34,427 nt of DNA from an uncultured Bacilli bacterium. Lineage in GTDB: Bacteria; Bacillota_I; Bacilli_A; RF39; UBA660. The translations under genes and the position numbers were made by a program. The stretch spans positions 1 through 34,427 of the forward strand of contig CALVYE010000003.1 in assembly GCA_944372025.1 (NCBI GenBank), written 5' to 3'. Positions within the stretch are counted from its first letter, which is position 1. Every line of letters starts with the position of its first letter. The notes under the pieces were generated by a model. It did no database searches and was not told the origin of the DNA. It saw only the letters and a program-made list of their open reading frames with translations. Of this stretch, positions 16,594 through 31,668 are shown in pieces.

Positions 16594-16870
16594 ATTCAGT
16601 AGCTTCTTCACTTGCATCTTCTTTATTGTATTCTTCTAAAATTGCGTCTTCAAACATTTTACGAACTTCTGGATTAATTGGATGTGCTATATCTCTATAT
16701 CCACCAGTAGGTGTTTTTCTACTTGGCATTGCGATAAATAAACCATTATCTCCTTCAATTATTCTAATGTCATGAACAGCAAAGCTATCATCTAATAATA
16801 CAGATGCAATCCCTTTCATACGTGAATTTTCTTTTTCAATTTTACGTACAGTAACAGATGTGATTTTCAA
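16592..16870 (-). CDS. spoVG: SpoVG, RNA-binding regulator
   Basis: Small conserved regulator; in B. subtilis it affects asymmetric septation, and in other Bacillota it is a site-specific nucleic-acid-binding protein. It is 92 aa. The diagnostic core [40 protein letters not shown] is intact. An acidic tail follows. Translation appears to begin at a TTG codon (16870) preceded by AAGGAGAGG. It is a single-gene unit with a good sigma-A promoter and its own terminator. In B. subtilis it lies farther from veg, with ispE, purR and yabJ between; those are missing here. Confidence 0.96.
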   Translation of the reverse strand: [92 protein letters not shown]

Positions 16871-16911
16871 GTTAAATCCTCTCCTTCCAAAGCATTACGC
16901 TTCATACCTAA

Positions 16912-16940
16912 ATTATATATTAGTAAAATTAAAAAAGCAA
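16912..16940 (-). promoter_or_regulatory. spoVG promoter
   Basis: -35 TTGCTT (16940-16935), 17-bp spacer, -10 TATAAT (16917-16912) on the minus strand, about 40 bp before the spoVG start. Confidence 0.65.
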
Positions 16941-16987
16941 TTGTTTTTTGTAAAAAAAGTGTTAAATATTGCTAAAAAATCCCAAAT

Positions 16988-17200
16988 TTAGTCGAAATGT
17001 AGCTCTACTGTATGAGTAAGAACATCAGAATATGTAAAAGATTTATTTTCGGTATCAGTTTCTACAACAAAAATAAAATTATAAGATTCTTTAATAATTG
17101 CATCAAATTCTTCTATTTTGTTTCTTCCAGTGTTAAATACGATCCTAACTTTATTCCCCAAATTTTCATTTATATTCTCTTTTATTTTTTGTATTGTCAT
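16988..17200 (-). CDS. veg: Veg family protein
   Basis: A 70-aa protein of the Veg (DUF1021) family. In B. subtilis it is highly expressed and linked to biofilm regulation and to spore outgrowth. Recognisable features are the start MTIQKIKENINENLGNKVRI and the SYNFIFVV and FTYSDVLTHTVEL segments; it is a small beta-barrel-like protein. The ATG follows TAGGAG, which includes the yabG stop. It is 8 bp from yabG and likely co-transcribed with ksgA-yabG, as no strong separate promoter is seen. The yabG-veg order matches B. subtilis. Confidence 0.92.
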   Translation of the reverse strand: MTIQKIKENINENLGNKVRIVFNTGRNKIEEFDAIIKESYNFIFVVETDTENKSFTYSDVLTHTVELHFD

Positions 17201-17208
17201 ATTTTCTC

Positions 17209-18000
17209 CTATCTAGGATACCCAACATACATAGTACCTTTTGTTTTTATACCACCTATCCCGTCTGGTCCATATTTTGTTTTAGATAGAATACCTATTA
17301 AATCAATATCTTCGCTTTTATCAGATAATCCTATTGTAGATGCAATAATAGCTGGATCTAAAGCGTGAATATTGATTCTTTTTGGACTTGATGCAAAATT
17401 AGCTCCTGCTCTAATTAATTCCTCGTAATTTGATTGACATGCCCCAGCAATTATAATTAATTTATCTTGAGCTTTTTCATATTTTCTAGCCTCTTTAATC
17501 GCTTTAATAAAATTACTACTATTTCTATAAGAATTACTATCGCTTTTTTCACCTTTTTTTCGATAAAAAGCATCATGTCCTGTAATAACTACAATATCTG
17601 GATTTGTATCCTCCAGATATTTTTTTATATTACTTGCTATATCATCTTCTTTTGAATAAACACCATATGCTAAAATATTAGAATTTTTATAAAAGTTAAG
17701 ACATCTTTCTAAATAATCTTTATCTCCATCTATATGAAGTATTTTTCCTGGAAGATAAAAATATTCATTACGATTAAAAGTTTCACTAATTTTTATATTT
17801 TTAAATTTTCTGTCATCTTTCTCAATTAGTTCTTTTTCTTCCGTATTAGATAATACTAAGTCATCAACATCACTATCAGCATATAATCTTATATTTACTC
17901 CTTTTAAAAATACTGTATCTTCTTCAATATTAATTATTTTAAAAACCGTATCATTATTATGAGATTTTCTGGTGACTAAATCTCCAATTTTAAAATTCAT
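17209..18000 (-). CDS. yabG: Sporulation-specific protease YabG
   Basis: Cysteine protease that processes spore coat proteins in B. subtilis and the pro-form of a cortex hydrolase and pseudoprotease in Clostridioides difficile. It is 263 aa. The N-terminal SH3-like part starts MNFKIGDLVTRKSHNNDTVF. Conserved motifs include ILHIDGDKDYL, VVITGHDA (candidate catalytic His) and IAGACQSNYEELI (candidate catalytic Cys), and GIGGIKTKGT near the end. An ATG nine bases upstream is less likely since it overlaps the ribosome-binding site GGGTGAT. Start and ribosome-binding site lie in the 3' arm region of a strong hairpin. Confidence 0.95.
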   Translation of the reverse strand: MNFKIGDLVTRKSHNNDTVFKIINIEEDTVFLKGVNIRLYADSDVDDLVLSNTEEKELIEKDDRKFKNIKISETFNRNEYFYLPGKILHIDGDKDYLERCLNFYKNSNILAYGVYSKEDDIASNIKKYLEDTNPDIVVITGHDAFYRKKGEKSDSNSYRNSSNFIKAIKEARKYEKAQDKLIIIAGACQSNYEELIRAGANFASSPKRINIHALDPAIIASTIGLSDKSEDIDLIGILSKTKYGPDGIGGIKTKGTMYVGYPR

Positions 18001-18045
18001 CTTTATCACCCATCTAATTATATGAGTAGTAAAGATGAATTATTA
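17995..18045 (-). promoter_or_regulatory. yabG occluding hairpin with internal sigma-E-like promoter
   Basis: Two perfect 11-base arms (ATTCATCTTTA at 18040-18030 and TAAAGATGAAT at 18005-17995, minus strand) contain the yabG ATG. The stem can be extended by TACTC with GGGTG, covering the ribosome-binding site. A sigma-E-like promoter is nested inside: -35 TAATAAT (18045-18039, overlapping the ksgA stop), 14-bp spacer, -10 CATATAAT (18024-18017, in the loop). A start about six bases downstream of the -10 would give an RNA without the 5' arm. Confidence 0.6.
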
Positions 18046-18828
18046 TAGATTATTAGATATATCTGCAAAAATTTCTATTGATATTGCTTCTGCTCTTGCT
18101 GATAAATTCATATTATACTTATTTAAAATTTCTTCTATTTTTTCAAGATCATAACTTTTCAAATTATTTTTTAAAGTTTTTCTCTTATACTTAAAAGAAT
18201 CTTTTATTAATTTAAAAAACTTTTCTTCATTTTTGACATTAACTAATGGTTTTTCTCTTTTTGCTAACAATATTACTGCACTATCTACATTTGGTTTAGG
18301 ATAAAAAACATTTCGACTAACATTAAACAACTTTTTTATTTCAAAATAGTAATTCATAAATACTGTAAGAGAATTATAATCTTTTGTAGATTTTGATGCT
18401 GAAAGTCTATCCGCTACTTCTTTTTGAACCATAAATAAGCATTTATTTACAGGTATTTTATCGACTATTATTTTATTAATTATAGGTGTAGTTATATAAT
18501 ATGGTAGATTAGCGATAATATATAAATTATCATAGCTAAAATTTAAATAACTTTTAACATCTTGATCTAAGAAATCTCCATATATAACTTTTACTCCTGT
18601 TTCTTCAAATTTATTTAAATAAATTTCTAATTGTTTATCTATTTCAAAACAAATAATTTTTTTAGTTTTATTTAGAAGTTTATTAGTAAGTGCTCCTGCA
18701 CCAGGGCCTATTTCAATAACTAAATCATTTTCTGTAATATCTATAGTATTTACAATATTATTTAATATATTGTCATCCTTTAAAAAATTTTGTCCATATC
18801 TTTTTTTAAAATTAAAATCTTTGTCCAT
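18043..18828 (-). CDS. ksgA: 16S rRNA dimethyladenosine transferase
   Basis: Dimethylates two adjacent adenosines in helix 45 of 16S rRNA during 30S maturation. It is 261 aa. The N-terminus KKRYGQNFLKDDNILN is typical. The SAM-binding motif VIEIGPGAGALT follows, then the catalytic IIANLPYYITTPII motif and FMVQKEVADRL. The ATG has an AGAGG site. It has a good sigma-A promoter and leads into yabG-veg. In B. subtilis the M5 nuclease gene rnmV lies just upstream of ksgA; here it is replaced by a terminator and the 3D-domain gene. Confidence 0.97.
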   Translation of the reverse strand: MDKDFNFKKRYGQNFLKDDNILNNIVNTIDITENDLVIEIGPGAGALTNKLLNKTKKIICFEIDKQLEIYLNKFEETGVKVIYGDFLDQDVKSYLNFSYDNLYIIANLPYYITTPIINKIIVDKIPVNKCLFMVQKEVADRLSASKSTKDYNSLTVFMNYYFEIKKLFNVSRNVFYPKPNVDSAVILLAKREKPLVNVKNEEKFFKLIKDSFKYKRKTLKNNLKSYDLEKIEEILNKYNMNLSARAEAISIEIFADISNNL

Positions 18829-18855
18829 AATAAACCTCTTTTCACTTACAATAAA

Positions 18856-18884
18856 ATTATATATTAATAACTACTAATTTTCAA
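18856..18884 (-). promoter_or_regulatory. ksgA promoter
   Basis: -35 TTGAAA (18884-18879), 17-bp spacer, -10 TATAAT (18861-18856) on the minus strand. It begins at the T-tract of the preceding terminator. Confidence 0.75.
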
Positions 18885-18910
18885 CAAAAAAACAAGCTAG
18901 ATGCTTGTTT
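18883..18910 (-). terminator. Terminator after the 3D-domain gene
   Basis: An 8-bp stem AAACAAGC/GCTTGTTT (18890-18897 and 18903-18910, loop TAGAT) followed on the minus strand by seven T. It lies 2 bp after the stop codon. Confidence 0.85.
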
Positions 18911-18911
18911 T

Positions 18912-19562
18912 CTACCAACCTAACCTAACTACATCAACTGTTATATTTTTTTGTGTCGTTTCATTAGGTACACTTTTTTCACTTTCAAAAAGTAAATCTA
19001 TTTTATTCCCTTTAATAGCGCTTCCTCTATCTAATACGATAGCCAAAGTTGGTTCACTTAAAACTTTGCTATTTGAAATTCTAAATATTGTTCCGAATGG
19101 ATATTTTCTATCTGCAGCGATAATTCTTAATTTTCCATATTTAGAATCATTATAATAAATATTCCCGTTTTTCACATTTTGTCCAGCAGAAACTATACCA
19201 CTACATCCTTTACAATCAGGACCATAGCCAGTTATCGAACCAATAAAAGTATCAATAAATTTTTCTCCTACTTGTATAATTTCCGTTTGGGGTTTTTGAA
19301 CTTCGATTTTAACTCCATTATATTCAACAGTTAAACCATCCATACCCGTTTGAACTACTTTTCTTTCCATAAAATATAAATTATGATTTATCTCTTCTAT
19401 AGTTTCATGTGGCACTACATTATGTATTATGTCATCATTATATTCGGTTTCTAATGAATTAACTTTTTCAACTTTACTTGTTAGTGCAGCATAAATTGTG
19501 AATACTCCAATAGCTGAAAGTTTTATAGCAGTTCCAAATTTCTTTGGGAGCTCAATTTTCAT
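18912..19562 (-). CDS. 3D-domain cell-wall protein (YabE-like, reduced)
   Basis: A 216-aa probably exported protein: a positively charged N-terminus and one hydrophobic segment (about 11-28), then a linker. A G5-like region (VQTGMDGLTVEYNGVKIEV-type) follows, and then a C-terminal 3D domain from about residue 112. The three acidic residues that name the domain are seen in AADRKYPFGT, VLDRGSAI and IDLLF. 3D domains occur in resuscitation-promoting-factor-like and MltA-like murein lytic transglycosylases. The B. subtilis neighbour YabE has extra DUF348 repeats, which are missing here. It lies between tatD and ksgA as yabE does, so it is the likely counterpart. A disulphide pair CKGC precedes the domain core. 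Confidence 0.85.
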   Translation of the reverse strand: MKIELPKKFGTAIKLSAIGVFTIYAALTSKVEKVNSLETEYNDDIIHNVVPHETIEEINHNLYFMERKVVQTGMDGLTVEYNGVKIEVQKPQTEIIQVGEKFIDTFIGSITGYGPDCKGCSGIVSAGQNVKNGNIYYNDSKYGKLRIIAADRKYPFGTIFRISNSKVLSEPTLAIVLDRGSAIKGNKIDLLFESEKSVPNETTQKNITVDVVRLGW

Positions 19563-30837: not shown

Positions 30838-31026
30838 TTAAAGAGCCACTAACAATATTACAATCAAACCAAGAAGTCCCGAGAAACCTAAACATGCAAC
30901 TACTGTAACAGTTATTATATTTATTGGTACAATTATTGATAATGGCGACATTATTAAATTAAATCCATATAAAATAAAAGCTGCTAATACTATTTTTTTA
31001 ATTACAATAAATATTTTTTTTAACAT
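30838..31026 (-). CDS. bofA: BofA-family inhibitor of pro-sigma-K processing
   Basis: Mother-cell membrane protein that in B. subtilis holds the SpoIVFB protease inactive until the forespore signal. It is 62 aa with two hydrophobic helices (about 8-26 and 34-61) and the family core SPLSIIVPINIITVTVVACLGFSGLLGLIVIL. It is shorter than the 87-aa B. subtilis protein, lacking part of the first membrane segment region. Position just after recR is exactly the B. subtilis one. The ribosome-binding site is enclosed by a hairpin and a sigma-E-like promoter overlaps the recR stop (31034-31074). Whether a SpoIVFB or sigma-K partner exists cannot be seen here. Confidence 0.9.
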   Translation of the reverse strand: MLKKIFIVIKKIVLAAFILYGFNLIMSPLSIIVPINIITVTVVACLGFSGLLGLIVILLVAL

Positions 31027-31033
31027 AATTTGT

Positions 31034-31074
31034 CCACCTCATTAATTTTTATGAGGTAGAACTATTTTTTATGA
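31034..31074 (-). promoter_or_regulatory. bofA occluding hairpin with internal sigma-E-like promoter
   Basis: A 9-bp hairpin on the minus strand (CTACCTCAT at 31059-31051 with ATGAGGTGG at 31042-31034, one G-T pair, 8-nt loop) encloses the bofA ribosome-binding site GAGGTGG. Nested sigma-E-like elements: -35 TCATAAA (31074-31068, overlapping the recR stop), 14-bp spacer, -10 CATAAAAA (31053-31046). The promoter's RNA would begin near 31040 and lack the 5' arm. Confidence 0.5.
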
Positions 31075-31668
31075 AACTTCTTTTCTATCATTAAGTGCCA
31101 TTTCTAATGTTAAAGGATCAATGTATTCTATATCTGCTCCTAATGGAATACCATGAGCAATTCGCGTTACAGTAACATCTATATTTTCAAGTAATTTTTG
31201 AATATATAATAGAGTAGTTTCTCCTTCAATACTAGGATTGATTGCGAGTATAACTTCTTTTATATTTTCTTCCTTTATTCTTCTAATTAAATATTCAATA
31301 TTTATATCTTCCGGACCTATACCATCAATTGGAGAAATAAGTCCATCAAGAACAAAATATAAACCATTATATACGGATAAATTTTCAAAAGAAAATACAT
31401 TTTTAATATTTTCTACAACACATATTGTACTTTTATCACGTGTTTCATCTTTGCATATACTACATACTTCATCTTCAGTTATATTATTGCATAATGGACA
31501 TTTTTTAATTTTAGTTTTAACATCTACTAATGCTTCTGAAAAATCTATAACATCTTCTTTTTCTAATTCATTTATTGAAAACGCATATCTTTCAGCGCTT
31601 TTTTCTCCAACTCCAGGTAATCTTTTAAAATTTTCTATTAGTCTTATAATACTGTTCGGATATTCCAT
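31069..31668 (-). CDS. recR: Recombination mediator RecR
   Basis: Ring-forming DNA-binding protein acting with RecO and RecF in gap repair. It is 199 aa. A helix-hairpin-helix is seen near the N-terminus (FKRLPGVGEKSAERYAF). A zinc finger CPLCNNITEDEVCSIC (about 57-72) follows. The Toprim domain includes ICVVENIKNVF and ends with the VTRIAHGIPLGADIEYIDPLTLEMAL signature. The ATG follows TAGGAG. dnaX-ybaB-recR is a classical operon, and it continues directly into bofA. Confidence 0.97.
   Translation of the reverse strand: MEYPNSIIRLIENFKRLPGVGEKSAERYAFSINELEKEDVIDFSEALVDVKTKIKKCPLCNNITEDEVCSICKDETRDKSTICVVENIKNVFSFENLSVYNGLYFVLDGLISPIDGIGPEDINIEYLIRRIKEENIKEVILAINPSIEGETTLLYIQKLLENIDVTVTRIAHGIPLGADIEYIDPLTLEMALNDRKEVS

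Follow-up and report, generated by a model that had tools for sequence, protein, structure and literature searches.

In Bacillus subtilis, sigG (spoIIIG) lies downstream of spoIIGA-sigE, and a hairpin of 20+ bp has been proposed to block the translation of read-through transcripts (PMC5942855). Hairpins also silence the early transcripts of the phage T4 late genes e, soc, 49 and I-TevI, as well as those of segB and Aeh1 mobE (PMC2988022, PMC3014915). As for the sporulation protease gene yabG, its promoters in B. subtilis and Clostridioides difficile are given as sigma-K and sigma-E/K promoters, respectively (PMC10681294).

The ability to sporulate has been predicted from gene content for an RF39-like lineage (PMC10868615). 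The window analysed here, a stretch of 34,427 nt, is contig 3 of a draft genome (1.16 Mb) from an uncultured Bacilli bacterium of the RF39 group, whose relatives are rumen, rabbit and other gut MAGs labelled ‘Bacilli’, ‘Tenericutes’ or ‘Mycoplasmatota’. This genome encodes sigma-E-like, sigma-K-like and sigma-G sporulation sigma factors. From the sequence and its predicted folding we propose, with a probability of roughly three in four (0.74), that a hairpin between ksgA and yabG makes read-through yabG mRNA translationally silent and that a promoter nested in the hairpin bypasses this lock.

The ksgA-yabG gap and its hairpin

The product of yabG, a spore-coat protease, belongs to the YabG peptidase family, scoring above the cut-offs of both models used, and the gene follows the housekeeping gene ksgA on the minus strand after a gap of 42 nt (Table 1), the gap sequence before the ATG being TAATTCATCTTTACTACTCATATAATTAGATGGGTGATAAAG. 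A preliminary description of this DNA, made from the letters alone, had reported perfect 11-bp arms directly after ksgA that could be extended over the ribosome-binding site. The perfect arms are present, although they comprise 12 pairs rather than 11, and the extension is real: of the 19 bp in the hairpin, 12 are perfect Watson-Crick pairs (18041-18030 with 17994-18005), and beyond a single C·A mismatch the helix resumes with 7 pairs, two of them G·U (18028-18022 with 18007-18013). Because these 7 pairs continue past the mismatch, both the Shine-Dalgarno (SD) sequence (18011-18005) and the ATG (18000-17998) lie inside the helix; as in hairpins of the sigG and T4 late-gene type, the translation start is thus paired within the 3' arm (18041-18022 with 18013-17994).

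Table 1. Features of the ksgA-yabG and recR-bofA loci in the window.
Feature	Position	Strand	Evidence and remarks
ksgA promoter, sigma-A-type, TTGAAA-17-TATAAT	18856..18884	-	11/12 matches, best of the scan; consensus match only
ksgA/rsmA, housekeeping, upstream of yabG	18043..18828	-	TIGR00755 260.6 bits, above cut-off
-35-like TAATAAT, overlapping the ksgA stop codon	18039..18045	-	sequence; -35-like pentamers peak at the matching distance in relatives
yabG hairpin, 5' arm	18022..18041 (18041-18030 and 18028-18022; mismatch 18029)	-	sequence and folding
-10 CATATAAT, putative sigma-E/K-type promoter	18017..18024	-	conserved in relatives; start near 18010 predicted
yabG hairpin, 3' arm, containing SD and start codon	17994..18013 (18013-18007 and 18005-17994)	-	sequence and folding
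yabG SD, GGGTGAT	18005..18011	-	sequence; kept in relatives
yabG, sporulation protease, ATG 18000-17998	17209..18000	-	TIGR02855 289.5 bits and PF05582 309.6 bits, both above cut-off
recR, housekeeping, upstream of bofA	31069..31668	-	TIGR00615 253.9 bits
bofA promoter (putative), TCATAAA-14-CATAAAAA, in the hairpin region	-35-like 31074-31068; -10-like 31053-31046	-
bofA hairpin, 10 bp over the SD	31033..31060 (31060-31051 with 31042-31033)	-	sequence and folding
bofA, second sporulation gene in the window	30838..31026	-	PF07441 30.1 bits, above cut-off; TIGR02862 below cut-off

When the 66-nt yabG region was shuffled 2000 times with its dinucleotides preserved, perfect arms of at least 12 pairs arose in 4 cases, and every pair of the hairpin had a probability of at least 0.74 when folded with 60-300 nt of upstream context. 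The folding of both transcripts, which had been suggested earlier as a check, gave an opening energy for the SD and start of 20.7 kcal/mol in the long RNA (genome mean 5.1) versus 7.5 kcal/mol in the predicted short RNA that starts after the -10. By predicted start-opening cost, yabG ranks first among 573 genes (695 kb of its own genome). Sequestration at p 0.05 was reached by 6 of 70 ordinary co-directional genes of this genome. Most of its other genes with a CATAnnnT box near the start show no sequestration, so the promoter type alone does not entail the design. The second and third ranks in start-site sequestration are held by a short-chain-dehydrogenase-like gene (L161:13840, plus strand) and an unknown 113-aa gene (L159, minus strand), located on contigs 20 and 18 of the same genome, respectively, and each preceded, at a distance of about 60 nt, by a co-directional gene; these two may share the design of yabG with other promoters.

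No terminator was found between ksgA and yabG, as had been claimed, nor was any terminator-like site seen on either strand from 16850 to 19000, and the hairpin itself is not a stem followed by a U-tract as in intrinsic terminators. A predicted sigma-A-type promoter that matches the vegetative ksgA promoter postulated earlier precedes ksgA, and RNA started there may read through into yabG, as described for upstream transcripts in systems of the sigG and T4 late-gene type. At the curated score, Rfam gave no match at the yabG hairpin; its matches in the window are a T-box leader (RF00230; 22810-23000, minus strand), which lies upstream of a dUTPase-like ORF and metG, and a bacterial small SRP RNA (RF00169; 34172-34254, minus strand).

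The hairpin is present in both other genomes analysed for the genus (L034 and L035). In the former, a sister species, an inserted trpS gene (identified from its sequence) separates ksgA from yabG (L034:1362-2456), and the hairpin remains at yabG. This bears on the idea that we are dealing with a structure of the ksgA mRNA 3' end, protecting it from exonucleases or serving as a processing site, whose overlap with yabG is accidental: its location just past the ksgA stop, with no terminator to supply a 3' end, would suit such a role, but neither the hairpin staying with yabG after the trpS insertion nor the regular cover of SD or start by the 3' arm at yabG, bofA and spoVIF (see below) would be explained, and we consider this origin very improbable.

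A predicted sporulation promoter nested in the hairpin

Promoters of the sigma-E/K class combine a KMATATT-like -35, a spacer of 14-15 nt and a CATAnnnT -10. The element TAATAAT-14-CATATAAT at the yabG hairpin is of this type, as is the consensus of 166 loci, and we assign the putative promoter to the E/K class only, rather than to sigma-E or sigma-K. The sigma-E-like -35 overlapping the ksgA stop (18045-18039) and the 14-nt spacer had both been recognized in the preliminary description and were confirmed, while its placement of the -10 in the loop was mostly right: ATAAT lies in the loop and CAT in the stem tip.

Across about 180 yabG loci of the family, the -10 CATATAAT, the SD immediately after it and a short leader are conserved, and a -35-like pentamer peaks 19-21 nt before the -10 (77 hits in 166 loci), consistent with a sigma-E/K promoter whose spacer is 14 nt long. 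Judging from this motif, transcription of yabG should begin some 10 nt upstream of the ATG, near 18010 and past the 5' arm. The conserved -10 and short leader imply that sporulation transcripts should lack the 5' arm, akin to the products of the internal promoters in systems of the sigG and T4 late-gene type. Across the family, the predicted yabG starts lie at or beside the SD, corresponding to sporulation mRNA leaders of ~10-15 nt. Of 386 genomes of the family that were searched, 327 carry yabG, and one relative has a second, diverged copy of it (G060:C30, L136).

Hairpins and terminators in relatives

To compare loci across the family, we scored 178 of 184 yabG loci for the cost of opening the SD and start in the long RNA relative to dinucleotide shuffles of the sequence upstream of the predicted start, taking p ≤0.05 as significant. 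With terminators called by a simple stem-plus-T-run rule, which is likely to misclassify some loci in both directions, significant sequestration was seen at 37 of 70 loci that are co-directional with the upstream gene and have no detected terminator, as opposed to 8 of 77 with a terminator and 1 of 21 with a divergent neighbour. The contrast between the first two classes (odds ratio 9.7, p = 3e-8, uncorrected for phylogeny) held when each genus was given one vote (14 of 32 versus 2 of 32, p = 0.001). Unshuffled opening energies showed a similar trend, with 9.5 kcal/mol for long RNAs of loci without a terminator versus 6.0 kcal/mol for those with one (p = 4e-6), while the short RNAs hardly differed (2.8 versus 2.4 kcal/mol). 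The notion that the long RNA blocks the yabG start and that RNA from the internal promoter leaves it open is thus supported computationally. Since 33 of the 70 terminator-less loci showed no significant sequestration, the hairpin is not obligatory. When the -10 was held fixed in the shuffles, the contrast fell to 16 of 70 versus 6 of 77 (p = 0.012), because the -10 itself forms an arm in many lineages; all three members of the window's genus remained significant under this regime (z of 4.0, 10.4 and 4.4).

On a YabG tree, the hairpin label requires at least 10-11 changes (gains and losses undistinguished), and the three-genome hairpin clade of the window is nested among the terminator-bearing L037, L038 and L039. 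Phylogenetically independent pairs fell about 4 to 0 in the expected direction (p = 0.125), a comparison that is underpowered. In L037 and L038, which belong to a sister genus, an intrinsic terminator sits in the ksgA-yabG gap, its stem occupying the same spacer. The loop of this terminator holds the -35 (TCATAAT) of the yabG sporulation promoter. A DNA-similarity search with the gap sequence returned mostly noise outside the genus.

These comparisons also speak to translational coupling, in which the ribosome finishing ksgA would melt the 5' arm and yabG would be translated in proportion to ksgA. The 5' arm begins 2 nt past the ksgA stop, within reach of a terminating ribosome, but significant sequestration is also seen where the gap to the upstream stop measures 84 (L166), 86 (L169), 135 (L252) or 199 nt (L077), which argues against coupling as the main function. 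Moreover, the hairpin alternates with terminators, there would be little reason to tie a spore protease to a housekeeping gene, and coupling would leave a separate sporulation promoter that omits the arm without a purpose. We regard coupling as unlikely overall, and as conceivable at loci whose arm adjoins the stop codon. A ribosome terminating at the ksgA stop would cover roughly 10 nt at the start of the 5' arm and could briefly open it, a point that counts against silencing by the yabG hairpin.

Two arm designs are seen. The 5' arm consists mostly of the -35/-10 spacer in the window's genus; in many other genera (L135, L193, L164, L013 and the L064-L111 clade) it is the box GCATATAAT that pairs with the start region ATTATATGC. 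In genera of the latter kind, the sequence on either side of the -10 varies in step with codons 2-4 (AAAAAC/GTTTTT, GGC/GCC and CGC/GCG), and variants of the -10 covary as well, for example CATAAGAT with ATCTTATG. Flank pairing at 68 terminator-less loci with a CATA-type -10 beat all 2000 permutations (z 6.8), as opposed to terminator loci (n = 40), where it did not (z 0.6). The arm sequences vary by lineage, while their pairing with the start region is kept. As to compensatory arm changes in relatives, proposed earlier as a check, covariation was found at the level of the family; within the window's genus (3 genomes) no two-sided change was seen, the arm changes there being one repaired mismatch, two U-A pairs turned into U·G (L035) and one broken pair. 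With only three genomes and no double change, covariation within the genus is uninformative.

That pairing is kept while sequences change also makes a protein operator unlikely, that is, a DNA inverted repeat bound by a regulator of the sporulation promoter, with the RNA fold incidental. The palindrome does overlap the promoter, as such a site would, but the arms differ between lineages and always pair with the start region, the inner G·U pairs and the two U-A to U·G changes of L035 preserve RNA pairing while breaking the DNA palindrome, and divergently placed yabG genes with the same promoter lack the hairpin (sequestration in 1 of 21). We give this explanation very little credence.

Recurrence at bofA and spoVIF

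The same arrangement is found at a second sporulation gene in the window, bofA, which lies 42 nt behind recR, with no terminator found before it (Table 1). Among relatives, sequestration was significant at 18 of 48 recR-linked, terminator-less bofA loci and at 15 of 24 comparable spoVIF loci of the family, terminator-bearing copies of both genes being too few for a contrast. The spoVIF design is exemplified by CCTCCTA-CATATAAT-TAAG-TAGGAGG (L356), and at spoVIF of the window's own genome (L357/L271, contig 29, near 5678) the SD lies in a hairpin and the -10 in or at its loop.

A more trivial explanation would be chance pairing in AT-rich DNA, favoured by the resemblance of CATATAAT to the complement of AT-rich start regions and then inherited in a few clades. 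The weaker contrast with the -10 held fixed and the small number of strict phylogenetic pairs would fit chance. It does not account for the top rank of yabG among 573 genes, the difference from loci that share the promoter but carry a terminator, the covariation (z 6.8 versus 0.6) or the recurrence at two further genes. Highly unlikely as an account of the hairpin, chance is excluded for the class, and less strictly for any single locus.

Discussion

In the silencing mechanism that we favour, RNA from the vegetative ksgA promoter that reaches yabG would have both arms and fold, burying the SD and AUG. In sporulation, the mother-cell polymerase (with sigma-E or sigma-K) would initiate inside the hairpin, ~10 nt before the AUG, and the resulting transcript, lacking the 5' arm, would be translated. 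The hairpin would thus stand in for a terminator, insulating a sporulation gene from a housekeeping gene. We infer all three of the read-through RNA, the precise position of the transcription start and the extent of repression. For the family as a whole, we lean towards the view that promoter-containing blocking hairpins have evolved repeatedly and serve generally in place of terminators at mother-cell genes that follow housekeeping genes (yabG, bofA and spoVIF), the -10 doubling as start-codon antisense in many lineages.

If so, one DNA element would be an on-switch and, when transcribed from upstream, an off-switch. Compact genomes set developmental genes directly after constitutive ones, and such hairpins would keep them off without a terminator or a repressor. 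As relatives use either hairpin or terminator, they offer many natural replicates for studying the evolution of gene insulation. In metatranscriptomes, the abundance of a transcript may not equal expression for hairpin-locked genes. The design also provides a rule, open to testing, by which silent read-through could be predicted in other spore-formers.

The literature searched offered no precedent for the bofA/recR hairpin and no bacterial analogues of long undecoded transcripts. The arrangement is apparently a repeatedly evolved variant of a known principle; what is new is that it serves mother-cell genes located after constitutive ones, that it alternates with terminators and recurs at three genes and across many genera, and that the -10 has a second role as antisense to the start codon. 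The yabG genes of B. subtilis and C. difficile are the same gene with a mother-cell promoter of the same class, and a read-through hairpin is not mentioned in the available part of the source (PMC10681294). The intrinsic terminator of L037 and L038 occupies the same gap with the same apparent purpose of insulation, but its stem and U-tract halt transcription, whereas the yabG hairpin would block translation. In phage T4, the late promoter likewise lies inside or next to the hairpin, early read-through RNA hides the start and late RNA lacks the 5' part of the structure; the T4 system serves a phage temporal programme rather than cell differentiation, and no common descent is suggested. Closest is sigG, also a sporulation gene placed after another transcription unit, with a hairpin that cannot form in RNA from its own promoter (PMC5942855). 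In that case, however, the preceding operon also belongs to sporulation and the gene encodes a forespore sigma factor, while yabG and bofA of the present family are mother-cell genes behind constitutive ones (ksgA, trpS and recR), with arms that vary by lineage and hairpins that alternate with terminators.
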